From a virus, in the IMG/VR virus record IMGVR_UViG_3300025164_000339, positions 1-29,267 of that record: a stretch of 29,267 nt of DNA, one strand, 5' to 3'. Made by a program: the position numbers and the translations under genes. The notes below the pieces were generated by a model. It was not told the DNA's origin and made no database searches. It saw only the letters and a list, made by a program, of their open reading frames with translations. Shown here piece after piece: positions 9,647 through 24,781 of this stretch; position 1 is the stretch's first letter; each line of letters begins with the position of its first letter.

Positions 9647-10458
9647 CACAGTGCCTCGAGCAGCGACACGTCCGCGGAGTAGGAGAGCCCCGAGCTGCGC
9701 GGCGCGCGCGCTTCCTGCTCCACCGTCACCTCCGCCCAGTAGGCCACGGGCGGGGGCGGGCTCGCATCATCGCCGGGCGGATCGACGTAGACGATCCCCA
9801 TGCGCGCAGCCAGGGCGAGCTCGGAGAAGAGCGTCAGGTCACCGGCCGGCAAGTCGACGCGCTCGAAGCGCCAGACGACCCTGCGCAGCGCTGGGCGCGC
9901 GACGAGGAAGACGTCGCGCTCGCGCGTCTCGGTGCGCACGAGATTCGGGCTCGCGGTGTCGAGCCACGGCGTCGATGGCCCGCGTTGCGGCGTGCGTGTC
10001 TGGGAGACGAAGATCTCGCCGAGCTCGGGCTGAGCGGAGAGCGTCTTGAGGACAAGCGCCAGGTAGCGATCGGTCACGGCGGTGAACGTCCGGCTCTGCT
10101 GGCCCGTGGTCGGAGTCCAGCTCTCGCGCAGCGTGCCCTCGGTCGGGCCGGTGAAGGCTGTGCCCTTTGAGCGGAGCTCGACGGTCGCGCAGGCGGTCGC
10201 GAGGTTGTGGCCCGCAGGGATGATCAGCCGGTCGAGCCCTGGGTGGCCCGCTCCGCCATCCCATGCCATCCAGGCATCGCCCGTCGCCAGGTTCAGGCGC
10301 ACGATCCGGCCGAGCTTGGAGTCCGCGATCCGTGCACGCGATGCGGCCGCCGTCGGGCCCGCCCCTACGCCAGAGGCGACCGGAGCTGTACCGATGATCG
10401 AGCCGACGACCGCGGCCGCGGAATGATGCAACAGGAAGCGAGGGCCGCGGTAGGCCAT
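9646..10458 (-). CDS. Minor tail protein, distal-tail position
   Basis: A 270-aa protein directly after tape measure, with TGATG overlap, so by siphovirus gene order it should be a distal-tail or baseplate-like component linking the tube to the tip protein. The composition is beta-rich (for example TFTAVTDRYLALVLKTL and VVWRFERVDLP). The first 40 residues are Ala/Gly-rich and could be flexible. There is no clear catalytic motif. Assignment rests on position and general character, since I do not recognise the family from sequence alone. Confidence 0.65.
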   Translation of the reverse strand: MAYRGPRFLLHHSAAAVVGSIIGTAPVASGVGAGPTAAASRARIADSKLGRIVRLNLATGDAWMAWDGGAGHPGLDRLIIPAGHNLATACATVELRSKGTAFTGPTEGTLRESWTPTTGQQSRTFTAVTDRYLALVLKTLSAQPELGEIFVSQTRTPQRGPSTPWLDTASPNLVRTETRERDVFLVARPALRRVVWRFERVDLPAGDLTLFSELALAARMGIVYVDPPGDDASPPPPVAYWAEVTVEQEARAPRSSGLSYSADVSLLEAL

Positions 10459-12011
10459 CAGTGCAGCGCCGAGTACAGCCCAGGCTCTCGCGTCAGGCGC
10501 GAGCCGCCGCGGAAGACGACGCGCGTCCCTCCGAGTACGAGACGACCGCCTCCAGCTGTCGCCGCATCGACGGCAGCTGCACGCCCCTGCTCACGCGCGA
10601 TCCGGTCGAAGTCGCGGGAGCTGAAGACGGCGACCTGCGCCATCTGTGCGCTCGCGATCGCGGCAGCCTCGGACAGCCGGAGCAACGATGCCGTGTTCGC
10701 GTCGAGTACGCCGCCCTGGCGCTCGAGCTCCGTCGAGCTCGTCCGTGTATTGACCGCGAAATTCGTGGCCTGTTGGGCAGAGAGCGCGAGAGCCTCCGCG
10801 TAGGCGGTGACGCTGATCTTGCCGTCCCGGTAGAGCTGCTCGATGCGCTCCAGGCCGCCCGCCTGCTCGAGGATCTGAGCGACCAGGACCGCCTGCGCCC
10901 TGGCGAATGCCTCAGAGTTGCGGGCACCGCCGGCGAAGATGGCATCGAGCCGCTCGAGCCGCGTGCTCAGCGTATCGAGCTCGATCGCCGTGCCCGCTGC
11001 GGTGAGTCCGAACTCCTTGAGCAGCGCGACTCGCTCGGCCTCTGCCTGCTGCTGGGCGAGCGCGGCGCGCAGCCGCTCCTCCTGGACTGCGCGCTCCTCG
11101 GTCGCCTGTGCCGCTTGACGCTGCGCCGCAGCGTACTCCACAGCATGCTCGGCGGCGATGGCTTGCTCCGTGCGGATGCCGAGGAGAATGTCGAGGAACT
11201 CCTTGAAACTCACGTTGTTGAACTGCGTGGCCTCGAGCTCGGTGCGCAGCCGGACATGCTCCTCGCGCGCTTCACGCTCGGCCTCGACCCAGCGAGTCAG
11301 CCCCGTGATCATCTGCTGCATCCAACCGCCCTGGCCGGCGCCAATCGCAAGAGCCACTTCGGCGCCCAGGTCCTTGAGGCTGGCCCCGAGCGTCCGGAAT
11401 GCACCGGCCGCGTTGTCGACGGATGCGGAAAGCTGGCCCTTGAATTGCTCGCCAATCACACGGATCGCTTCGCCCGAGCGCAGCGCCTCATCGGACAACT
11501 CGCCGAGAGATGCGTTGAATCGCGAGATCGCCTCGACATTGCCCGTCAAGCTCGCACCCAGCCTGCGAACCGCCTCTTCATTCGAGATCCCGAGCGCCGC
11601 TGCCATGTCCAGCGCTGCCTGCGTCAGCTCGCGCGCGCCCTCGGCGTTGCGCGTGTACGCGACGGCGAGCGCCTGGAGCTCGAGCACGGTGGACTCGGAG
11701 ATGCCGGCCGTCCGGCGCACGCTCTCGGCGAATGCCTGCGCACCCTCGACCGCCGACGCGCTGCGTGCGCCCACGACCCCGAGCGCCGACGAGAAGCGGG
11801 CGAGCGCCTGCTCCTGGCCGACGAGCTCCTGGCCGATCTCGCGGAAGGCGAGCCCGGCGCCGGCGATCGCGGCGGAGAAGCTCGCCCACTTGGCGATCGC
11901 TCCGCCGACCTCGCCGGAGAGTGACCCGAGCGCGGACTCGACCTTGCGGATCTCCGGGCTCGCCTGGTTGTCCGCCTCGATCGTGACGGTGGCCTTGAGA
12001 TTGCGCGTCAT
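10458..12011 (-). CDS. Tail tape measure protein
   Basis: Tape measure protein that sets tail length and is ejected during infection. The 517-aa product is almost entirely helical, Ala/Glu/Gln/Arg-rich, with long heptad-like stretches (about residues 85-190 and 265-420), an opening KATVTIEADNQASPEI typical of small tape measures, and a hydrophobic segment at about 38-57. At about 0.15 nm per residue the tail would be roughly 75-80 nm. The ATG at 12011 has AGGGG upstream and begins 7 bases after the tail-tube stop. No tail-assembly chaperone gene lies between the two, which is unusual. Confidence 0.85.
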   Translation of the reverse strand: MTRNLKATVTIEADNQASPEIRKVESALGSLSGEVGGAIAKWASFSAAIAGAGLAFREIGQELVGQEQALARFSSALGVVGARSASAVEGAQAFAESVRRTAGISESTVLELQALAVAYTRNAEGARELTQAALDMAAALGISNEEAVRRLGASLTGNVEAISRFNASLGELSDEALRSGEAIRVIGEQFKGQLSASVDNAAGAFRTLGASLKDLGAEVALAIGAGQGGWMQQMITGLTRWVEAEREAREEHVRLRTELEATQFNNVSFKEFLDILLGIRTEQAIAAEHAVEYAAAQRQAAQATEERAVQEERLRAALAQQQAEAERVALLKEFGLTAAGTAIELDTLSTRLERLDAIFAGGARNSEAFARAQAVLVAQILEQAGGLERIEQLYRDGKISVTAYAEALALSAQQATNFAVNTRTSSTELERQGGVLDANTASLLRLSEAAAIASAQMAQVAVFSSRDFDRIAREQGRAAAVDAATAGGGRLVLGGTRVVFRGGSRLTREPGLYSALH

Positions 12012-13919: not shown

Positions 13920-14401
13920 CAGCTGCCCAGCTTCCAGTGGCGCCGCAGCTCGTCGATGAGCAGCGGCTCGAAGAGCCGCGACTCGGCATCAAGCGCCGGC
14001 GCGAGGAAGGCTCTACGCGGGTAGCGCCTGCGCCCGACGTTCAGGCCGTACTCATGGACGGCGCTGTAGATGAGATCCGAGCCAACCGTGATAGCGCGCG
14101 GGAAGCGCGTCTTGTCCATGCCGCGGTTCTGCGAGAGCGAGCGCCTGAGCTCGCCCGAGCGGCTGGTGAGCCGGGTCGGATGAGGCGGCGCATCGTGCAG
14201 CTTGCCGCGTCCGCCTCGAGGCCCGGGTGACCGGAAGCGCCCGCCTCGGATGATCTGCTGCTCGGCAGCATTGCGCAGGACGCGCAGCCCGGCGGCGACC
14301 AGGAAGCGCTGCACCGGCTGGCGCACCTGCTCCGGGCGGGACGCCAGCAGGAACGCGCGGAGCTCTGGAGAGACCCGCCAGACGATGCGCGCAGCAGGCA
14401 T
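13919..14401 (-). CDS. Neck protein, HK97 gp10/virion-morphogenesis-like
   Basis: A 160-aa protein with the hallmark late pattern of gp10-like neck proteins: LTSRSGELRRSLS, then AITVGSDLIYSAVHEYG, then YPRRAFLAPALD, followed by a C-terminal helix (FEPLLIDELRRHW). The N-terminus carries a helix with REQ/Arg-rich residues and a basic loop (RGGRFRSPGPRGGRGK). These proteins join the connector to the tail. The start overlaps the connector stop as TGATG. Position after the connector supports the call. Confidence 0.8.
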   Translation of the reverse strand: MPAARIVWRVSPELRAFLLASRPEQVRQPVQRFLVAAGLRVLRNAAEQQIIRGGRFRSPGPRGGRGKLHDAPPHPTRLTSRSGELRRSLSQNRGMDKTRFPRAITVGSDLIYSAVHEYGLNVGRRRYPRRAFLAPALDAESRLFEPLLIDELRRHWKLGS

Positions 14402-15663
14402 CAGGCGGCCCTCGCATAGCGGCGTGCGAGCGTGAGGGCCTGAGGCACCCAGTCATCCGTCAGGTAGCCGGGGCTGCCCACAGCTGCCTGAGCGGGCCCA
14501 CGATTGCCCAGTCGCCCGCCGCCGGGCTCGAGCTGCTTGAACAGGTACGCCGCCTGGAGCACGGCCGCGAGCTGGAGATCGCGCGGGATGCCGGCCACGA
14601 AGCCGGTGACGTAGTCGACCTCGAGATCCGCCCAGACGGCGCCAGAGAGGCTGCGCAGGAGCCCGGTCGCGGCCTCGACCACGTACTCGGACGGATCGAT
14701 CACGTCGCCATCGCCATCGCGGAGCTCTGCGATCGAGAGGATCGGCCACTCGCGCAGGGGCAGGCGCCCGATCGGCACGCCGCCTGCGCGCACGTGGCGT
14801 TCGGCCGTGATCGTGCGCGAGAGCGAGAGCTGCCGGCGCGTGAGCCCGCGGATCATCTCGCTGGCGCCGGCGATGGCCAGCGTGAGCGCGGCATCGGCGT
14901 CCGAGGTGTCGATCCCAAGAGCGAGGCGGAGATCGTCCAGGCTGCACAGCGCATCGCCCAGGCCAGGCGCCTCGAGCTCGAGCACAATGAGCGCGCCGAC
15001 CATGTCGGTATCGACCAGGTCGGTCACGGTCACGACGACCGTACAGCCCCCCGGCAGAGCGAGAGGCGGTGCGCCCGTGGGCCAGGCCACGCTGTAGGCG
15101 CCGCTCGAGGCTGCGATGGTGACCGTGAGCCCGCCGTTCACCGGATTGCCGGCCGAGTCCAGGAACGCGAAGGCGAGATGAGCAGCTACCGTGGGAGGCG
15201 GCGTTCTGGGGGTCACAGCTGCTGCACGGATCTGGTAGCCGACGGCCGGGCCGGCCATGCGCATCCACTCCGCGTCGATCGGCGCGTCCCCGTCGATGTT
15301 CCAGCTGAGGATCGCGCGCGTGCCCGTAGCCTCGCCGAACTGCGCGATGAGGGTGAGATTCTGCGCGGCGCTGGCGGTCACGACGCGCAGGTAGATCTGG
15401 GACGATGCGCCGGCCGGGATCGCGATGCTGCCGACGGCGACCAGGCCGACGAGCTGACCCGCGACGATGGTCGCCTCGATGTAGTCGGTGGGCGCCCCTC
15501 CGCTCTGCTTCTGCAGTCGAACGACGAGCGCCGTTCCACTCGGAGCCGTGCGCACGGATGGCGTGATCGCGGTGAAGGTGACCGCGATGCTCAGGCCGAG
15601 AGCGATCAGCTGCTCCTGGCCGTTGCTCAGCGCGCCGTCGAGCTGGAAGTTGACCGATCCCAT
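14401..15663 (-). CDS. Fusion of beta-sandwich surface domain(s) with head-tail connector
   Basis: A 420-aa protein of two parts. Residues about 236-420 match a head-tail connector of the HK97 gp6-like type: LCSLDDLRLALGIDTSDADA, IAGASEMIRGLTRRQL, REWPILSIAELRDGDG, then a C-terminal helical segment AAVLQAAYLFKQLE. Residues 1-235 are beta-rich: a domain with APSGTALVVRLQKQSG and IAIPAGASSQIYLRVV, then an Ig-like stretch (VAAHLAFAFLDSAGNPVNGG). The first domain resembles beta modules seen on phage fibres and decoration proteins. No stop or internal start separates the parts. ATG 15663 has GGGAG upstream. Stand-alone connectors are usually under 200 aa, so the N-terminal half is an added module. 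Confidence 0.78.
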   Translation of the reverse strand: MGSVNFQLDGALSNGQEQLIALGLSIAVTFTAITPSVRTAPSGTALVVRLQKQSGGAPTDYIEATIVAGQLVGLVAVGSIAIPAGASSQIYLRVVTASAAQNLTLIAQFGEATGTRAILSWNIDGDAPIDAEWMRMAGPAVGYQIRAAAVTPRTPPPTVAAHLAFAFLDSAGNPVNGGLTVTIAASSGAYSVAWPTGAPPLALPGGCTVVVTVTDLVDTDMVGALIVLELEAPGLGDALCSLDDLRLALGIDTSDADAALTLAIAGASEMIRGLTRRQLSLSRTITAERHVRAGGVPIGRLPLREWPILSIAELRDGDGDVIDPSEYVVEAATGLLRSLSGAVWADLEVDYVTGFVAGIPRDLQLAAVLQAAYLFKQLEPGGGRLGNRGPAQAAVGSPGYLTDDWVPQALTLARRYARAA

Positions 15664-15687: not shown

Positions 15688-15903
15688 CTATGCGCCGCGC
15701 AGTTCGGCGTTGAGCTGCCTCTTCGTCTCCCGCAGCATCCTGGACTTGATCGCGTGCTTCACGGTGTCGCGCGTCGGGGCCTCTGCACCGCGCTTCTTGG
15801 CGCGCTTCAGCGCGTCCGCATAGGCGGCATTCGTCTCCGCCTCGAGCCGCGCGGCGAAGCCCTGCGGCTTCGCGACCTCTGCCTGTGCCTCTGTGTCGGC
15901 CAT
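15688..15903 (-). CDS. Small basic helical protein in the head module
   Basis: A 71-aa protein from ATG 15903, which has GAGG 5 bases upstream; a GTG at 15909 would add two residues. It is helical and strongly charged (RLEAETNAAYADALKRAKKRG, then KHAIKSRMLRETKRQLNAEL). Position between the secreted beta-helix gene and the connector fusion suggests a small head or assembly protein, but no family is recognised. Its stop is 24 bases before the connector start. Confidence 0.62.
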   Translation of the reverse strand: MADTEAQAEVAKPQGFAARLEAETNAAYADALKRAKKRGAEAPTRDTVKHAIKSRMLRETKRQLNAELRGA

Positions 15904-15910
15904 GTTCACC

Positions 15911-18565
15911 TCATCTGCGGCCCCAGGCCGCCGTTTTCCACGAATCGCCGTGGAGGTAGGGGTTGTGATGGATCACGCGCAGTCCCCACTGGTCGTATGC
16001 GCCGACGTCGCGCGCGCCGCACTGATTGGCGAGTGGGCTCTGTGGCGTCTGTTGCAGGATCCCCAGCTGTGGCGCGACGAATGGCAAATGGCGCTCGCGC
16101 CAGGTAGTGACAGGATCCATGGCAGCGTCCAGACCGGAGAAATCTTGATCGTTATTGACGAAACAGAAACCGCCACGCAGGAATGCCCTATCCGGAGCAT
16201 CTGCTATGGAGATCGTGGACTGATTCGCCGTCGATGACCAGTGATGAGCCAGCAGCACCTGCTTGAGTGTGTAGTATGATGCGAATACTGAATCCGTACC
16301 GCTAGCGGAGATCAGTAGGCTCCACGTATTCTGCTCTCCTGGCCGGAAGCCGATGGTAATGCGTTCTGCATCCATGCGCGTTGTGCCAGCGGCGAAGGCA
16401 TCGAAGCGCAATACCGTTCTTGCTGCGCTCTGTCCTGTGCGATTTGGCGAGATGATCGCGAGATCGCGGATGCGTGTCGCAATCTGCGGGTCTGAGAATT
16501 GGAAGAGATAGATGGGATCGCTGCCTGGTGCGTCCGCATCCAGCGACAACACGCGGTAGAGGGAAACATCCGATCCACTATATCCGGACTGCGGCGGACT
16601 AAAGAGATACCCGCCGGATCCAGTTGCCCGTGATTCAATGATCGAAGCATCCGTCAAAGCCGTGGGCCTGTAGAAGGACTGCGTGCCGGCATTGACGCGG
16701 CCGATATCGTAGACGTTGCTCAGCGCGACCACGCCTGTACCAGTGCCCCCCCAAGTCACCATCGGGCCCTTGGCGCTGATTGACGTGATCCCTCCGACCG
16801 AAATCAGGCTGTTCGCCATGATGTGATTGATCGTTCCAGAGGTGACGTCCTCGCCTTCGCCGGCACGAAACAGCAAGTCGTGCGCCTCGATCCCGCGACC
16901 GCCACCACCCGTGCCCGTATCGATCGGATTGCAGGAACCGCCGGCGCACCCGAAGAACTCGAACCGAATCCGGCGGAGGATTGCGGCATACGGGAACACG
17001 GTGGAATCATCACCTCCGGAGACGCTGCTCGGGCCGGTCACCGTGAATCCGTTGAACACGATCGGATCATCTCCAGCGTGGCGGATGACCATGTCGCTCA
17101 GCTGAACATTCGTATTTCGGCCGATCGGCGAGAAGCCATGCCCCGAAGCGGCATTCGGGGCCGTGCTCTGGTAGCGGTCGAGCGGGCCGGCTCGCTCCGC
17201 CAGCAGATGCCCGACGCCGGCGCCATTGCCGCGCATCCATGAGTTGCGCACGACGGTCCCTGTGAACCAGAGTTGCTGCCCGAGATGATCAAGTACCGTG
17301 AAATCGAATTCGCAGGTCGCATCACGCGAGCAGGTGATCGGAGAATCCGTATCCGTGCCTGCGTTCCCGTCACCGATCAGGGCGGGTCGGAAGAGCGAGA
17401 GCGTATCGCCGCGATCCCATCCGTAGGTGATGAAGCAGGTTGTCGCGTCTGCGATCCCGTGTGCGAAGCCCCCGGGCATGATCCGGATCGAATCGCCGCC
17501 GGCATCGTCGATGATCTCGGTGATCTGGATGATCTGCCGGACTGGCTCATTGGTCCCATCGGCATCGATATCGGCAGGGCAATCCAGGTAGCGTCCCTCG
17601 CGTTGTCGATCCGCGGTGATCGCCGTCGTGCCGACCGCGAGCGTGCGCCGCCCAGCGACGTAGGCCGCGGACAGGGTCACCTCGAGAACATCGCGCTCGG
17701 CGACATGGCAGGAGAGCGCGTTGGCGTGGCAGCTGACCTCCGTCGTGGCATCCGCGCTGGTCGGTCCCTGACGGATGGCCATCGTCAGACACACATCATC
17801 TGTGGTCGTGTTGATGGACAGGATCTCGTACATCGCGTTCACGTCGCGGCTCGGATCGAGGCCACCCGTGGGGTCCCAGAAAACGAGCACGTCTCCGACG
17901 GCGGCGGCGGCGATCCACTCGGGGTAGAAACCCTCTCCGGGCTGGCCGGCGGTGGTGACCTGATAGCCCTGCCTGCGCGCGGTCGCGTCGTCCGCATTCG
18001 GCCAGCAGATGGCGATCTGCGCAGGCGAGCCCGGGGTCGTATCGTTTGCCTCGCAATCCTCGACGAGCGTCGAGGCGCTGGTACCCGGGCAGTGGATGAT
18101 CTCTCCCGCGGCCAGCGCCGTGTTGACCGTCGGAACGGTGCTCTGCGCCAGCGCTGCCGCGGAGTAGGCCGGCGTTGCATTGCCGTAGGTCAGCGCACGT
18201 CCCTGCGACCGGAAGATGCCGAGCGGCTCGACCAGGAGGCCAGCACCCGGCACGCCGAGGCCGCCGGCGGCAGCAAGGGTGAGCTGCCCGCCTGCGCGCA
18301 CGATGATCTGCGCCGTGGCGCTCGACATGGTGACGTCGAGGTCCGTCACCGTCGCATCGCCCGGGATCGTGACGATGGCGTCCTGGGGGATCTCCCAGAT
18401 ATCGGCATCGCTGGCGTTGCACGTGCATCCAGTGATCGTGCCGGCCGAGACGGTACAAGCCGCCGTCCAGTTGTAGGTTCCGGTCGGCAACGTGCAGGTC
18501 TCCGCCAGAGCGCGGAGCGGCAGCAGCAGCGCCGCGAGCCATGCCAGGATCTTGATGCGTCGCAT
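15911..18565 (-). CDS. Secreted parallel beta-helix protein with signal peptide
   Basis: An 884-aa protein starting at ATG 18565 with GGGGAG 7-8 bases upstream. The start MRRIKILAWLAALLLPLRALA is a classical Sec signal peptide (basic n-region, Leu/Ala core, ALA cleavage site) followed by ETCTLPTGTYNW. Residues about 50-125 have the stacked IP-G-ATV, IIVRAGGQLTLAAAG, LLVEPLG pattern of a beta-helix cap or G8-like domain. The rest is Gly/Thr/Ser/Asp-rich with many Cys, like extracellular parallel beta-helix proteins, and ends with CGARDVGAYDQWG. It lies between the capsid and connector genes, where a secreted protein is not expected. A hand count of 16261-16320 gives 30 of 60 G+C, against 42 of 60 for 10981-11040. 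It may be a horizontally acquired conversion gene or a surface-acting glycan enzyme; no catalytic motif is certain. Confidence 0.75.
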   Translation of the reverse strand: MRRIKILAWLAALLLPLRALAETCTLPTGTYNWTAACTVSAGTITGCTCNASDADIWEIPQDAIVTIPGDATVTDLDVTMSSATAQIIVRAGGQLTLAAAGGLGVPGAGLLVEPLGIFRSQGRALTYGNATPAYSAAALAQSTVPTVNTALAAGEIIHCPGTSASTLVEDCEANDTTPGSPAQIAICWPNADDATARRQGYQVTTAGQPGEGFYPEWIAAAAVGDVLVFWDPTGGLDPSRDVNAMYEILSINTTTDDVCLTMAIRQGPTSADATTEVSCHANALSCHVAERDVLEVTLSAAYVAGRRTLAVGTTAITADRQREGRYLDCPADIDADGTNEPVRQIIQITEIIDDAGGDSIRIMPGGFAHGIADATTCFITYGWDRGDTLSLFRPALIGDGNAGTDTDSPITCSRDATCEFDFTVLDHLGQQLWFTGTVVRNSWMRGNGAGVGHLLAERAGPLDRYQSTAPNAASGHGFSPIGRNTNVQLSDMVIRHAGDDPIVFNGFTVTGPSSVSGGDDSTVFPYAAILRRIRFEFFGCAGGSCNPIDTGTGGGGRGIEAHDLLFRAGEGEDVTSGTINHIMANSLISVGGITSISAKGPMVTWGGTGTGVVALSNVYDIGRVNAGTQSFYRPTALTDASIIESRATGSGGYLFSPPQSGYSGSDVSLYRVLSLDADAPGSDPIYLFQFSDPQIATRIRDLAIISPNRTGQSAARTVLRFDAFAAGTTRMDAERITIGFRPGEQNTWSLLISASGTDSVFASYYTLKQVLLAHHWSSTANQSTISIADAPDRAFLRGGFCFVNNDQDFSGLDAAMDPVTTWRERHLPFVAPQLGILQQTPQSPLANQCGARDVGAYDQWGLRVIHHNPYLHGDSWKTAAWGRR

Positions 18566-18581
18566 GTCTGTTCTCCCCGAT

Positions 18582-18614
18582 GAGGGGCCCGGCCGATGGG
18601 CGACCGGGCCCCTC
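18582..18614 (-). terminator. GC-rich hairpin after the capsid gene
   Basis: A perfect 11-bp inverted repeat (GAGGGGCCCGG, 11-base loop, CCGGGCCCCTC) lies 15 bases after the capsid stop on the coding strand and ends about 16 bases before the next start. There is no U-run after it, so it is probably a partial terminator, attenuator or mRNA 3'-end stabiliser for the abundant capsid message. Confidence 0.6.
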
Positions 18615-18629
18615 CCTCTCACCCCTGGA

Positions 18630-19949
18630 CTAACCAGCCGTCGTCAGACCCAGCATGATGCGCAGCGCAGCCACGGTAAGGATGTTCCCATCGAAGCGCG
18701 TTGTGAACTTGAAGACGATTCCATCCTCGAGGAACCGGATATGCTCGCTGATCGCGACGGAGATCCCGCCGGCATCGAGCAGCCCGTACCCTTCCCGGAA
18801 GTCGCCGAACATCAGCGTGCCCGCCGCGAGCGGCACGTCATAGACCGGACGTCCGAAGATCGACCCGACATTGCCGGCGGTGTTGCCGATCACGTTTGCA
18901 GCGGCATCGGCAGGCTGGAAGATCGGCCGCCCGTTCCCATCGTCGATGAGCGAGAGGATCTTCATGACCGTCCCATCGCCCAGCCACGAGCCGCCCGCCC
19001 GATAGGGCTCGGGCACCGCGAAGTAGAGCGAGACCACGTCGGCATAGGCCAGCGTGGCCGAGACGGCCTCGGTCACCTCCGTCACGCCCGTGATGATGGC
19101 GCTCGTGATGTTGGGCGCCGTCCCGTTGCTCGTGCAGATCTGCACGTCCTCGAGCGCCCCGAGCGCCGAGCCCGCGCGCTCGCTGAACAAGCTCACCAGG
19201 TCGAAGGCCGAGTCCGAGAGCAGCTCGATGGACGCCTCGAACACGCCCTGCGCCTTCTTCTTGTCGAGCAGCTTGTGACTGATCGTCGGCTCACCCTGTG
19301 AGGCCGTCGCACCCTCGGCGACCATCGCCACCGTGGCCGAGCCAGCGGTAGGCACCCGGAGCGTCTTGCCGGCGCTCGTGAAGCTACTGACGATCGGCCG
19401 CAGGCGCGCGCGCTTGTCGCGGGCGAGCATGATGACCGCCGCCAGCGGGGTCGGCATGAGCGAGGCGCCCGATCCGGCCGTCATGCCGGTCGTCCCGGAC
19501 GCGAGCCCCTCGAGCAGGTCGGCGCGCTCGTGCTCGCTGACCGACACGCGCGGGAAACCGAGCTCCTCGAGCTTGGCGTCCGCCTCCATGAGGATGCCGC
19601 GATCCCGCCATGCTTTGCCGCGGAGCCACTGGGCCATCCAGTGGTCGCTGTCCGGCGTGCGGATCTTGCGCTGGATCTCGGGCAGCCGCAGGTAGCGCAC
19701 GGCATGCGGCGAGATCAGGCGCACGCCCTCTCCGTATGCGAGACGCTGCTTGGGTTGGCCAGAGAGCGCCACCAGCCCAAGCTGGCTGCGATCGGGCTTC
19801 TCGCCGAGGATCCGATCGACCTCGGCTCGGACCGTCTCGATCGCGCGCTCCTCGGCCTTCTGCGACAGGTCCTTGAAGGCGAGATTCAGCGCTGTCTCTC
19901 TGGCCTTCGCCATCTCCTCTGAACTCGGAGGCAGGGTCAGTTCCGGCAT
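18630..19949 (-). CDS. Major capsid protein, HK97 fold
   Basis: HK97-fold shell protein, 439 aa from ATG 19949, whose GAGGGG lies 6 bases upstream; an ATG at 19955 overlapping the protease stop is too close to that site. Residues 1-60 are a charged helical region (delta-domain-like), residues 60-150 continue as a helical or extended arm, and the typical shell part starts at about 160 with PTPLAAVIMLARDKR, SFTSAGKTLRVPT, ISHKLLDKKKAQGVFEASIELL and a C-terminal REGYGLLDAGGISVAISEH. It follows the protease and portal genes, the expected order. A strong hairpin follows the gene, which may protect or end its message. Confidence 0.87.
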   Translation of the reverse strand: MPELTLPPSSEEMAKARETALNLAFKDLSQKAEERAIETVRAEVDRILGEKPDRSQLGLVALSGQPKQRLAYGEGVRLISPHAVRYLRLPEIQRKIRTPDSDHWMAQWLRGKAWRDRGILMEADAKLEELGFPRVSVSEHERADLLEGLASGTTGMTAGSGASLMPTPLAAVIMLARDKRARLRPIVSSFTSAGKTLRVPTAGSATVAMVAEGATASQGEPTISHKLLDKKKAQGVFEASIELLSDSAFDLVSLFSERAGSALGALEDVQICTSNGTAPNITSAIITGVTEVTEAVSATLAYADVVSLYFAVPEPYRAGGSWLGDGTVMKILSLIDDGNGRPIFQPADAAANVIGNTAGNVGSIFGRPVYDVPLAAGTLMFGDFREGYGLLDAGGISVAISEHIRFLEDGIVFKFTTRFDGNILTVAALRIMLGLTTAG

Positions 19950-19951
19950 GG

Positions 19952-20953
19952 TCATCCCCTCGCGGCCAGGCTGTCGCGCACGATCTGTGCCGTGCGCACC
20001 CGGACGCGCTCGAGCAGGTCATCTACAGGCTGCGCAGGCACGGATGCCGGCGCAGTGTGAGGCACCTCGGGAACTCCCCGTGGCGCCGGCTCTCGCACGG
20101 GCTCGACGAGCAGCGGCATGCCGTCTGCCAGCAAGTCGAAGGCGAGCTCGAGCCGTTCGCGTGCCGAGCCCACGAGGCGGTCGTGCGCCTCGCGCGGGAT
20201 CAGCACGCGCTGCCCGTCCCCGTACTCGACGGAGACGAGCGAGGAGGCATCGGTGCCCATGCCGCAGAGCCGCAGCAGGGTCCCGAAGTCGGTCACGCCC
20301 TGGCCGCGCAGCGCCTCGACGCTGCCGGCGAGCGCGGTGTACGCCTCGCGCAGCTCTGGGGCTGCAGCGCCCTGGGCGAAGTAGTCCGCCAAGGCGCCGC
20401 GCCACAGGTCGCGGTCCGCTCCGCGCGCCTGCGCGATGCGACCGATGAGCGCGGCAGGGTCGGCGCCAATCGTGACGACCGAGCCCTCGAGCACGCGCCA
20501 GGCGTCGAAGTAGTAGCCCCAGCGCCGAGGATCATCTCCGTGTGCCTTCTCGGCGTCGACGTAGGCCGGATGATCGCTGGCGAGGTTGATCCTGCGCACG
20601 GGCGGCTTGAGCGGCTCCCAGCGCACGCTGAGCGCGGAGACGTGCCCTTGGGCGATCATGTGCGCGAGGTCTGCACGCCAATCAGCCTGCGCGCCGATGC
20701 CGGCCATCTCGATCTGCGCCTCGCCGCGGAGCTCGTGCTCGGACGGACGGAAGCGAGTCCAGCTGCCGAGATTCGCGGTGCCCGAGAAGGCATCATGGCC
20801 GAAGAGCAGCGGCGCGCCAGGCTCGGCCTGAGCGCCCTGCATCGATAGGATGTGCCCGTCGGATGCCTCACCGTCGGTCGCGAGGATGCCCGCGACGATC
20901 CCGAGCTCGGCGCCCGTCTCGATGCGGCAGTGGCGCTGGTAGCGTGTGGTCAT
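19952..20953 (-). CDS. Prohead maturation protease with long C-terminal region
   Basis: Probable serine protease of the HK97 gp4-like prohead family that trims capsid or scaffold during head assembly. The N-terminal 120 residues carry VAGILATDGEASDG, the catalytic His in LLFGHD (His53) and a serine in VSALSVRW (Ser106 or Ser109). Residues about 170-333 form a helical, Ala/Arg/Glu-rich region with a Pro-rich stretch (APRGVPEVPHTAP); this extra part may serve as internal scaffold. The ATG at 20953 overlaps the portal stop (ATGA) and has GAGGGGGAG upstream. The 333-aa length is longer than a minimal protease. Confidence 0.82.
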   Translation of the reverse strand: MTTRYQRHCRIETGAELGIVAGILATDGEASDGHILSMQGAQAEPGAPLLFGHDAFSGTANLGSWTRFRPSEHELRGEAQIEMAGIGAQADWRADLAHMIAQGHVSALSVRWEPLKPPVRRINLASDHPAYVDAEKAHGDDPRRWGYYFDAWRVLEGSVVTIGADPAALIGRIAQARGADRDLWRGALADYFAQGAAAPELREAYTALAGSVEALRGQGVTDFGTLLRLCGMGTDASSLVSVEYGDGQRVLIPREAHDRLVGSARERLELAFDLLADGMPLLVEPVREPAPRGVPEVPHTAPASVPAQPVDDLLERVRVRTAQIVRDSLAARG

Positions 20954-23070
20954 GCTGTCTCCCCCTCGGTGACGGGCACCATGGCGCAGCGACAGTTGAT
21001 CCGGTCGCCAGGCGGCAGGCTCGAGTCGAGCGGCGCTCGCGCCTCGATGCCGTCGCGCAGCCTGAACCGGCCCTCGAGCAAGACGGTCTGCCCGTCGATC
21101 TCGTGAGCGTCTCGGACGGCGTCGTCCTGCGAGTTGACCCAGCGCTTCAGCTGGACGACGCCAGATTGCCGCCAGCCGTCGAGCTGCGCGATCTGATTCG
21201 CGGTGCCGACCTCGGTCCGCGCGATCGTGCGCGCGCGCGAGCGGCGCATGTCCATGCCCTCGGCGACCGCTGCTTCGATCCGCTTGGCGCGCGCCTCGAG
21301 CGCTTCGCCCGCTTCAGCGGACTCCTTGAGCGCCGCGAACACCTTGCCCGAGAGATCGCGCAGCGTCGTATCGCTCACGAGCTTGCGGAAGACTCGCTCT
21401 TGGGCAGCGAGCTCGGTGGCGACCTGCGCCGAGAACACAAACCCGCCCGGCTGACCGCCGACCTGTGCGAGCGCGCGGCGCGCCTGGGCGAGGTAGGTTG
21501 CCCCGCGCACCTTGCCCGTGGTCCGATCGTAGAGCTGTGCCCATCCTGCCGGTGCGAGCGTGCGGCGCAGGATCGACATGATCTCCTCTGCGGAGAGATC
21601 CCGGGCGCTCCGCCCCATGCCGGCCTCGCGCAGCGCCTCGAGCATGCGGCGCTGCTGCGCGCCGAACACGCGGCGGAGCGCGCCCTCGAAGCTGCGCACG
21701 TAGCCGAGCACCAGCCGATCATCGAGTGCGGAGACATTCGCGCGTCTGCGCGGGGCGTCGTCGGGATCGGCCGGCTCATCGTCCACGGGGGCCAGCGCCT
21801 CGGGATCATCAGGGACGGTGATGGGCTCGGGCATCTCGCCGTCATAGGGCACGTCCGCGATGGAGCCTACGGGCAGCTCGCCCCACGCTGCGGCATCGAG
21901 CCCGCGCTCCTCGCGTACCTCATTGATCGAGCGGACCTTGAGCGTGAGATCCTGTGCCTCACGCGCGAGCTCATGCGCCTTGTCACGCGGGACGAACTCG
22001 CGGAAGCGCACAGCAATCGACTCACCATAGGCCGGCATGGCGAGCTGCGTGGTGAGCGCGTCCGCGATCAGATCCGCGTATGGCTTCACCGCGTAGAGGT
22101 CGAACACGTACTGATTCGTGTCGGCTGCGGCCCGGTTCGCGTCGACGACGTCGCCCACGACAGAGCGCGGCACGCCGAGCGCCATGAAGATCCGGTCGCG
22201 CAGGTAGGTCTGGATCGGCACGACCGATCCAGTCGAGGCGTGCTCATCGAGGATCTTGGCGCTGAAGCCGCTCGGCAGGAATGCCGGCAAGCCGCGGCGC
22301 GTGGAGCCTAGGCCGTAGGCGTTGCGCCAGCCCTGCTCCCAGCGCTCGCGGCCCGCAGGGTCTGGGTGCTGGGCTTCGGGACCTGACTCGATGACCACGC
22401 GCGGCGTGGCGTCATTCTGGAAGTGCTCTCGGATGTGCGCGTCGCCGTACTTGGTCGCATCGACAGCCTGCGCCTGCGGCCCGATGACTCCCTCGGCCGA
22501 GTAGAGCGTCTCGGGATCGGGCGTCCAGATCCAGATCACGTCCTCGGGACGGAGCGGGATCTCCTGCCCGGTGCCGCCCTGGGCGATGTACCCGGTAACG
22601 ATCCCGCCCTCGAGCACGGGGCGCACGCGCGCCGCCTGCATCACGTGGAGCTCGGCGGTGCGCCGACCGGACCGGGCCCCGACCCGGAGCAGGTAGGCTT
22701 GTCCGAGCTCGAGCAGGTAGCGGGTGAGCAGATAGAGGGCCTGGCGCCGCGAGTGGGTCGGCCCGAAGCGGGCCAGCAGGAGCGCGAGCTCGTGATCGTC
22801 CAGGACGGTCTCGACGACGGTCCCGCCGCGCTCCGAGCGCCGCTCGATGACCTCCAGGTCGAGCTGCATCATGCGCTTGGCGACGGCGCGCACGGCGATA
22901 TCTGCCCAGCCGAGCACCTCGCGGAGGATGGCGTCGGGGCTGGGTTGCGAGCTGCCGATCAGGCCGCTGCGGCCGACCGGGGGATGGAATGCGATGGGTG
23001 CGCCGTAGCGGGTCTCCCTGCGGTAGCGGCGCCAGTCGCGGAAATCGCGGTAGAGATCAAGGGCGCTCAT
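20950..23070 (-). CDS. Portal protein fused to MuF-like minor head protein
   Basis: A 706-aa protein with two domains. Residues 1-420 look like an HK97/SPP1-type portal: an N-terminal arm, a ELVLDDHELALLL-type region, RPEDVIWIWTPDPE, YLRDRIFMALGVPRSVVGD and a following long helix with KAHELAREAQD. An acidic Pro/Asp linker (about 415-445) leads to a MuF-like domain with RARTIARTEVGTANQIAQLDGW, WVNSQDDAVRDAHEIDGQ and the ending PPGDRINCRCAMVPV, the signature end of Mu gpF/SPP1 gp7. Such fusions are known in some phages. The ATG overlaps the TerL stop (ATGA). It makes the DNA entry ring and an internal or neck component. Confidence 0.88.
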   Translation of the reverse strand: MSALDLYRDFRDWRRYRRETRYGAPIAFHPPVGRSGLIGSSQPSPDAILREVLGWADIAVRAVAKRMMQLDLEVIERRSERGGTVVETVLDDHELALLLARFGPTHSRRQALYLLTRYLLELGQAYLLRVGARSGRRTAELHVMQAARVRPVLEGGIVTGYIAQGGTGQEIPLRPEDVIWIWTPDPETLYSAEGVIGPQAQAVDATKYGDAHIREHFQNDATPRVVIESGPEAQHPDPAGRERWEQGWRNAYGLGSTRRGLPAFLPSGFSAKILDEHASTGSVVPIQTYLRDRIFMALGVPRSVVGDVVDANRAAADTNQYVFDLYAVKPYADLIADALTTQLAMPAYGESIAVRFREFVPRDKAHELAREAQDLTLKVRSINEVREERGLDAAAWGELPVGSIADVPYDGEMPEPITVPDDPEALAPVDDEPADPDDAPRRRANVSALDDRLVLGYVRSFEGALRRVFGAQQRRMLEALREAGMGRSARDLSAEEIMSILRRTLAPAGWAQLYDRTTGKVRGATYLAQARRALAQVGGQPGGFVFSAQVATELAAQERVFRKLVSDTTLRDLSGKVFAALKESAEAGEALEARAKRIEAAVAEGMDMRRSRARTIARTEVGTANQIAQLDGWRQSGVVQLKRWVNSQDDAVRDAHEIDGQTVLLEGRFRLRDGIEARAPLDSSLPPGDRINCRCAMVPVTEGETA

Positions 23071-24353
23071 GCTGCGACACCGGAGAGTGTCGCTGCATCG
23101 CCCCAGCCGATGCCTCCGACGGGCATGAGCTCGGTGAGCGCCCAGACCAGCGCATCGAGGCGATCAGGCGAGCGCATGCCGGAGAGCGGCTCCCAGGAGC
23201 AGAGCTGATCCTCGAGCTCTCGGAAGCCGCCGACGTGATGGACCTTGCCCTGCTCGTAGAGGGCAGCGATGGGCTCTGCGCGTGCGGCCTTGCCGCGCGA
23301 TGCGTGCACCTTGCGATAGGGCACGTTTGGGCGAACCGTGCGGAGCGTGTGCTCGATGAGGTCGCCGCCGTTGTTCGCTTCGCCGATGATGCGGTCGGCG
23401 CCATGCCGATCGAGCGCGTTGACCGCACGCCGCGCCCAGGCATCCGGGCTTGATCGGCCTGATAGATCCTCGAGCACGTAGCCGTGCCCGTCGATCCCGA
23501 GGCCGGCCACGACGATACCTGTCTCGTCGCTGTCGGCGTCGCTTGTGACCGCGGGGTCGATCGCGACCACGATGCGCCGCAGCCTGTCCATGTCCACTGA
23601 CTCGATGCGATCGCGCTCGATCCAGTCGCGCTGCCACAGGGCGCCCTCGACCTCCTCGAGATACTCGCCGAGCACCTCCTGGCGGTAGAGCCGTGTGCCC
23701 TGGTAGCGGCCGAGGATCTCGCGCAGGAAGGTCGGCGCGAGGTTGCGGGCGTTGGCCTGGGTCGTGCCGCGAGTGACTGCGCAGGTAGGATCATCGAGCA
23801 GCTGGCGCACCACGCGGACGGGCTTGGGGGTCGTGGTGACGCAGATCTGCGGGTGCTGCCCGAGCCGCAGCCCGAACATCAGCATGTCCCAGGTCTCCGG
23901 GCGGGCCCAGGCGGCGAGCTCGTCGGCCCAGGCGTAATTCGCCTGAGGGCCGCGCAGGCGGTCGGGCTCTTCGGCCGAGAAGAGGTACGCGAGGCTCCCG
24001 TTGGGCCAGGAGAGCCGCCGGCGGCTGGGCTCGTAGACCGGCCGGAACCAGGGCGGCGCGGTGCGCAGGATGCCCGACTGGCCCTCGAGCATGACGTCGC
24101 GGGCGTCCGAGGCGGTCGGCGCGACGAGATGGATCCGGCAGCCCGGGTGGCGCTCGGCCTGCTCGCGCACCCATTCGCCCCCTGCGCGGGTCTTGCCGGC
24201 GCCACGGCCGGCCAGGTAGAGCCACTTGACCCAGTCGCCAGCCGGCGCGCGCTGCTCTGGACGAGCCCAGAAGCTCCAGCGGTAGGCCAGGGCGATGGCC
24301 AGCGCCTCGCGAGGCACGTCCTGAGCGTCCAGGATGCCCGTGGCTGCGCTCAC
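23067..24353 (-). CDS. terL: Terminase large subunit
   Basis: Packaging motor ATPase and nuclease, 428 aa. The start is GTG 24353, overlapping the TerS stop by GTGA; the open frame to 24773 reads out-of-frame TerS sequence and should not be used. Visible motifs: Walker A GRGAGKT (49-55), Walker B ANYAWADE (about 138-145, with the DE pair at 144-145), a coupling TTTPKP (about 173-178), then the RNase H-like nuclease with VVAIDPAVTSD (Asp266), GEANNGGD (Glu325) and SPDRLDALVWA (Asp400). The overall plan resembles terminases of GTA and small siphoviruses of GC-rich Proteobacteria. It cuts and pumps DNA into the prohead through the portal encoded next. Confidence 0.93.
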   Translation of the reverse strand: MSAATGILDAQDVPREALAIALAYRWSFWARPEQRAPAGDWVKWLYLAGRGAGKTRAGGEWVREQAERHPGCRIHLVAPTASDARDVMLEGQSGILRTAPPWFRPVYEPSRRRLSWPNGSLAYLFSAEEPDRLRGPQANYAWADELAAWARPETWDMLMFGLRLGQHPQICVTTTPKPVRVVRQLLDDPTCAVTRGTTQANARNLAPTFLREILGRYQGTRLYRQEVLGEYLEEVEGALWQRDWIERDRIESVDMDRLRRIVVAIDPAVTSDADSDETGIVVAGLGIDGHGYVLEDLSGRSSPDAWARRAVNALDRHGADRIIGEANNGGDLIEHTLRTVRPNVPYRKVHASRGKAARAEPIAALYEQGKVHHVGGFRELEDQLCSWEPLSGMRSPDRLDALVWALTELMPVGGIGWGDAATLSGVAA

Positions 24354-24751
24354 TGCAGGAGTGCCCGTACCTGATCCGGGTGCTCCGCGATCAGGCCGTC
24401 CAGGACGATCTGCGCTCGTTCGAGGGTTTCGAGCGGCACGCCGATGATCACCTCGCCGGAGTGCTCCAGGGCCAAGCGGGCCGGAGCGAGGCGATCGAGC
24501 AGGATGCGGAGGTGCTCGGCTGAGCCCTCGGCTGCGAGCTGCCAGGCCTTGTCCAGCGCCCGCTCGAGGTACGTCCGCCTGCGGTCCGGCGTGAGCTTGG
24601 CTGCGGTCTCGACCAGCAGCTTCCAGGCGTCGATGCCTGCGGGGCGGCCCTTGGGGTTGCCGCTGCTGCCCCGTAGCCACCTTCCCGTGACGTCTCGTGC
24701 TGGGGCGTGATGGGCAGGGATCTTGTCGTCCACCACTAGATGTTGTGGCAT
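24350..24751 (-). CDS. terS: Small terminase-like DNA-binding protein
   Basis: A 133-aa protein just before terL, overlapping it by GTGA, and by gene order the probable terminase small subunit that recognises phage DNA and regulates TerL. The N-terminal part has GRWLRGSSGNPKGRPAGIDA, a basic motif like that found in many small terminase proteins, and then an extended helix (KLLVETAAKLTPDRRRTYLERALDKAW) with a C-terminal dimerisation-like helix. The ATG at 24751 lies inside a large inverted repeat and has no clear Shine-Dalgarno sequence; a GTG a few codons later is possible. Annotated as TerS from position and motif, not from a match to a known structure. Confidence 0.7.
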   Translation of the reverse strand: MPQHLVVDDKIPAHHAPARDVTGRWLRGSSGNPKGRPAGIDAWKLLVETAAKLTPDRRRTYLERALDKAWQLAAEGSAEHLRILLDRLAPARLALEHSGEVIIGVPLETLERAQIVLDGLIAEHPDQVRALLQ

Positions 24752-24781
24752 AGTGCCACGTGGAACACAACATCTAGTGGT
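24732..24781. repeat. Perfect 16-bp inverted repeat over the terS start
   Basis: ACCACTAGATGTTGTG (24732-24747) and its exact reverse complement (24766-24781) flank an 18-base core. Inside sits a second nested pair, GTGGCA (24745-24750), TAG, TGCCAC (24754-24759), and the core also contains the 8-bp palindrome CCACGTGG (24756-24763). It covers the terS start and ends 12 bases before the divergent candidate holin gene, so it may be an operator for the two diverging genes or a packaging recognition site. Confidence 0.75.

Follow-up and report, generated by a model that had tools for sequence, protein, structure and literature searches.

The 884-aa gene lying between the capsid and adaptor genes of this phage is best explained as encoding a secreted, late-expressed, tailspike-like surface-glycan protein with an exchangeable specificity half. 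We give this reading, which is drawn from sequence, a probability of about 0.45. An exported spike-like glycan protein fits best because the protein combines a constant, cysteine-rich N-terminal part, mostly of native composition and with a signal peptide, with an exchanged C-terminal half that is tailspike-like. The protein may act on the surface coat of the host and not inside the particle; the strongest alternative is a role in the virion, as a spike or head fibre. From the initial annotation we retain a large, cysteine-rich and partly foreign protein with a signal peptide, plausibly directed at surface glycans. Its G8 domain and its simple low-G+C picture are dropped.

Gene organization and context

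The initial annotation placed an 884-aa signal-peptide gene inside the head gene cassette, and we confirmed the gene in that location (Table 1). The gene order is TerL, portal with a MuF domain, protease, capsid, 884-aa gene, 71-aa ORF, adaptor and neck. Thus, the gene directly follows the capsid gene, the position expected of a head decoration or head fibre gene. The Shine-Dalgarno-like sequence of the 71-aa ORF overlaps the stop codon of the 884-aa gene. The strength of the hairpin that follows the capsid stop is not clearly above that of shuffled sequences (z -1.4). A scan for sites of the sigma-70 type found no promoter-like and no terminator-like sites between positions 14000 and 20500; the simplest supposition is therefore that the gene is expressed late, together with the head genes. 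The adaptor has a ~235-aa N-terminal extension ahead of its phrog_442 region; the adaptor of one relative (L121) has a C-terminal fibre-like domain in place of this extension.

Table 1. Features of the 884-aa gene and its neighbours. Coordinates are positions in the window, i.e., the whole stretch of 29,267 nt that was analysed (IMGVR_UViG_3300025164_000339).
Feature	Position	Strand	Basis or remark
Main gene, 884 aa, predicted exported spike-like protein	15911..18565	-	ORF list and composition scan
Signal peptide, codons 1-21, MRRIKILAWLAALLLPLRALA (followed by E)	18503..18565	-	Sequence and rule-based test
Shine-Dalgarno-like GGGGAG, 7 nt upstream of the ATG at 18565	18573..18578	-	Sequence
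G+C-rich 14-bp hairpin between the capsid stop and the 884-aa gene	18582..18614	-	33 nt; without T-run
71-aa ORF directly downstream of the 884-aa gene	15688..15903	-	Sequence
Major capsid protein, HK97-type, upstream neighbour	18630..19955	-	PF05065, E 8e-36; phrog_10
Head-tail adaptor, downstream neighbour	14401..15663	-	phrog_442, E 1.8e-20
Part with atypical GC3 (0.70), residues ~319-884	15914..17611	-	Composition scan
Local similarity, residues 571-651 vs HK620 tailspike 429-511	16613..16855	-	35% identity
Constant part, residues 1-410, identical in L001	17336..18565	-	Residues 1-~318 with native GC3; 12 of 18 Cys
Residues 411-442, where the second allele (L001) starts to diverge	17240..17335	-	12 changed codons, 10 synonymous

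Signal peptide and cysteines

The N-terminus (MRRIKILAWLAALLLPLRALA/ETCTLPTG, with the slash at the predicted cleavage site) has a basic n-region, an unbroken hydrophobic core and an AxA site. By eye this is a standard cleavable signal peptide, and our own rule-based test also calls it one, in agreement with the Sec signal peptide proposed in the initial annotation. The same test flags 25 of 859 late genes at 144 related loci, and these are mostly short, lipoproteins or clear false calls. The cleavage site reads ALA/ETC, and thus does not have the lipobox cysteine at +1.

The many cysteines reported at the outset were also borne out. The protein contains 18 Cys (2.04% of residues), compared to 0.48% in nine other late proteins (23 in 4760 aa), an enrichment of approximately four-fold (Fisher p 1.5e-5). 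Twelve of them precede residue 411 and many are closely paired (24/37, 47/49, 279/286, 412/418 and 540/545). The signal peptide and the cysteines argue against ordinary cytoplasmic virion assembly of this protein. We infer that it is exported and that disulfides form by oxidation of its cysteines.

Similarity to a phage tailspike

When the C-terminal half alone was compared to PDB sequences, the HK620 tailspike was the sole protein matched at E ≤ 10 (E 0.0075). The alignment, with the core SNVxDIxRV...SFYxPxxxTD, spans ~81 residues and involves one protein family. The Smith-Waterman score is 101, compared to 42.2 (sd 5.5) for shuffled sequences, none of which (0 of 300) reaches 101. Similarly, phmmer gives 18.0 bits versus a maximum of 5.2 among 150 shuffles, and 0.3 bits for the reversed sequence. 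The N-terminal half scores 39 against the HK620 tailspike, versus a shuffle mean of 39.6. Pairwise BLASTP yields E values of 4.8e-6 to 7e-8, but 0.0075 is the value to rely on, as the pair was chosen from a database in the course of several such searches. HK620 was again the sole match in a phage-wide tblastn search with the segment (50,697 phage records), and a profile constructed from P0001 and the HK620 segment retrieved HK620 only. The matching region falls outside, and downstream of, D339/E372, which we take to be the catalytic residues of the HK620 tailspike. In the region of the N-terminal virion-binding head domain of P22/HK620-type tailspikes there is no Pfam or PHROG match, and a signal peptide occurs instead. 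On the basis of the alignment, it is probable, if not certain, that the exchanged half holds a tailspike-type beta-helix.

The initial annotation had placed a beta-helix/G8-like region in the N-terminal part. The beta-helix similarity persists, but in the C-terminal half, and we rejected the G8 domain (PF10162 has no match at E ≤ 10, and a Pfam scan of pieces of the protein was likewise empty). A fold matching that of a known tail protein had been named as grounds for abandoning the original interpretation. This is half the case, since a phage tailspike is the only detectable similarity.

The Beta_helix profile (PF13229) has no match even at E 10. We identified no full-length homologues of the protein in phages, plasmids, the PDB (whole-protein query), GTDB/genome contigs or 289 genomes of one class and, apart from this phage itself, none in the viral collection. 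The C-terminal query had no match in viral contigs, and there was no matching family profile in NCBIfam, PHROGs or Pfam. A line for phrog_866 (a toxin subunit family, E 0.36) was considered noise, and weak matches in genomes (L074-L076) were judged spurious. Structure prediction without relatives (two AlphaFold runs) gave unusable models (pLDDT 35 and 31).

Base composition and a second allele

Judged from composition and alleles, the 884-aa gene is a mosaic, the rear half of which appears to have been swapped in from elsewhere. GC3 changes from 0.85 to 0.70 at codon 318 (permutation p ≤ 0.001). Codons 1-330 have a GC3 of 0.84, compared to 0.85 in nine other late genes (p 0.42), whereas the value for codons 331-884 is 0.71 (vs 0.85, p 5e-17). 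The initial annotation had reported low G+C content from a 60-base sample (50%). This sample is unrepresentative, as the whole gene has a G+C content of 63.6% (67-71% for its neighbours), and composition is atypical for the 3' ~60% only. Because the change is within the gene, we reject low G+C of the gene as a whole as a sign of transfer.

A GC3 changepoint alone is not unique to this gene, as the TerL and tape-measure genes also change internally. In the TerL ORF (23067-24773, minus strand), codons 1-143 have a GC3 of 0.48, versus 0.87 for the remainder, and alignments with homologues begin only near residue 150. The start of this ORF was probably annotated too early, making it too long. The putative tape-measure gene (10458-12011, minus strand) changes at codon 131 (0.95 to 0.81, p 0.005).

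The window has three near-identical counterparts among IMG/VR contigs of other metagenomes, each of which stops inside the 884-aa gene (at about 18548, 17550 and 17241). One of these, L001, shows 2 SNPs against the window over ~7.8 kb, with an abrupt onset of divergence at residue 411. From this residue, 12 of 32 codons are changed (10 of the 12 synonymously), and the last 35 bases are wholly diverged. The mostly synonymous divergence over these 32 codons is as expected under purifying selection. The divergence would reflect either recombination inside the gene or an assembler crossing into a related strain; under both, a second allele exists nearby. In a search for further copies of this allele, L001 alone was found to have it, and a search for sister contigs on the adaptor side found none. 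A constant N-terminus combined with an exchanged module agrees with the module recombination proposed for genes of phage receptor-binding proteins and depolymerases (PMC13385381).

The capsid-to-adaptor interval in related phages

Loci encoding relatives of TerL (64 in genomes and the best 80 in viral contigs) were searched for capsid homologues. TerL relatives with 58-66% identity come from Bacillota, Methanolobus (archaea), Chloroflexi and Alphaproteobacteria; outside TerL, the genome has little in common with them, indicating strong module mixing. In GTA-like and prophage relatives (L032-L034, L036-L038, L044, L045 and L079), the adaptor gene directly follows the capsid gene. Compared to these, the 884-aa gene is an extra gene between conserved phage genes. 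In other relatives (L121, L123, L109, L097, L080 and L139), the interval contains between one and three small genes. One of these genes weakly matches phrog_19421 ("head decoration", E 0.0038), and others match phrog_5707 and phrog_28483 (unknown function). None of the proteins encoded in this interval in the examined relatives resembles the 884-aa protein.

An exported product in this position may not be unique, as in one related phage lineage the capsid gene is immediately followed by a 157-aa ORF with a signal-peptide-like start (L134:17831-18304 and L128:13454-13927). L099:16223-17755 was rejected as a parallel; this ORF encodes a capsid protein, the signal-peptide-like N-terminal extension of which is probably due to a wrong start codon.

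The small and partly decoration-like proteins of this interval favour a virion component, i.e., a head fibre, decoration protein or spike encoded in a decoration-like slot. In that case, the hydrophobic N-terminus would serve in attachment to the capsid or in assembly; alternatively, the protein would first be exported and then be added to the particle once the cell has lysed. Such a role could also account for the similarity to the HK620 tailspike and for the variable C-terminus, a feature of receptor-binding proteins, and some decoration proteins serve in host adhesion (PMC7602432). However, the clean AxA signal peptide and a cysteine enrichment unlike that of any other late protein argue against it, as does the dissimilarity of the relatives' proteins, relative to which the 884-aa protein is about three to seven times larger. 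Overall, we consider a virion component unlikely.

The absence of the gene from relatives with adjoining capsid and adaptor genes also suggests a moron, involved in lysogenic conversion. In this case the protein would be an exported adhesin or surface modifier that the prophage expresses to the benefit of the lysogen. Exported proteins (e.g., Lom) are encoded in the lambda late region (PMC12309495). Composition unlike that of the phage, expected for a moron, was found for codons 331-884; the 5' third, however, has native composition (as determined for codons 1-330). Also against this explanation are the lack of sigma-70 type promoter or terminator sites of its own, the tight coupling of its 3' end to the next late ORF, and the finding of no lysogeny genes among the genes examined on this incomplete contig. 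Thus, a moron is improbable.

It is very improbable that the gene is an artefact (a chimeric contig, or a signal peptide that is a chance hydrophobic stretch): despite the composition change within the gene, the three sister contigs that end in it and an L001 end at which the assembly may have joined two strains, the frame is uninterrupted over 884 codons, its adjacency to the capsid gene recurs in L001 and L004 (two other metagenomes), the second allele diverges mostly synonymously, and the ribosome site of the downstream ORF overlaps its stop.

Proposed role of the exported protein

We infer the biological role of the 884-aa protein, its glycan target, and the binding or cleavage of that glycan, from the features described above. 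The gene would be transcribed together with the late head genes, and the protein would cross the inner membrane, probably by the Sec route, and be cut after Ala21. Disulfides may stabilise the conserved N-terminal part. The C-terminal beta-helix half would be an exchangeable specificity module for binding, and possibly also cleaving, a surface polysaccharide that differs between strains. The site of action could be the infected cell's own surface, or debris and neighbouring cells after lysis. Masking or stripping of the receptor glycan would prevent re-adsorption of progeny and keep out competitors. Alternatively, the exported protein may loosen or clear the matrix.

Known tailspikes belong to the virion, and the known exported exclusion proteins are small lipoproteins. 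A more specific version of our reading, possible but doubtful, is that the protein is a dedicated secreted spike, derived from a tailspike and stabilised by disulfides. Its export half would be constant and its specificity half would recombine, and it would be the soluble, receptor-destroying counterpart of a virion spike. If so, the spike is made alongside the capsid but is then exported, and masks or strips the glycan that the phage itself uses as receptor. An exported, spike-like protein of this size with an exchangeable specificity half would link virion tailspikes and exclusion lipoproteins, and spike modules could serve as free surface effectors. In addition, signal-peptide genes in head cassettes should then not receive automatic structural annotation.

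Comparison with known systems

The head decoration and head fibre genes of relatives occupy the same place after the capsid gene, but their products are smaller, lack a signal peptide and are unlike the 884-aa protein. Lom of lambda and other late-region morons share with it a signal-peptide product encoded among late structural genes. However, Lom is a small outer-membrane barrel encoded in the tail region, whereas the 884-aa protein is large, spike-like and encoded in the head cassette.

The tailspike of HK620 (a beta-helix endoglycosidase of a P22/HK620-type podovirus) resembles the 884-aa protein over 81 C-terminal residues (35% identity), and both have a constant N-terminus and an exchangeable C-terminal part. 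The HK620 tailspike lacks a signal peptide, and its gene lies where late transcription ends, a long way from the capsid gene. The 884-aa gene, in contrast, is right after the capsid gene, and its product has a signal peptide, 18 Cys and a dissimilar N-terminal half.

Phage T5 exports Llp, which blocks the receptor used by T5 itself (PMC9586334). Like the exclusion lipoproteins Llp and Cor, the 884-aa protein is phage-encoded, is predicted to be exported and may alter the receptor of the infected cell. Llp and Cor are small lipoproteins, whereas the 884-aa protein is large and lacks the lipobox cysteine. WceF of Pantoea stewartii is an exported EPS hydrolase (a glycanase) with a tailspike fold and a Tat signal peptide (PMC7949094). 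It is a bacterial protein encoded in an EPS cluster, whereas the 884-aa protein is phage-encoded with a Sec-type signal. The likeness of WceF to the proposed protein, which is by description only, lies in export, a tailspike-like beta-helix and a surface glycan target.
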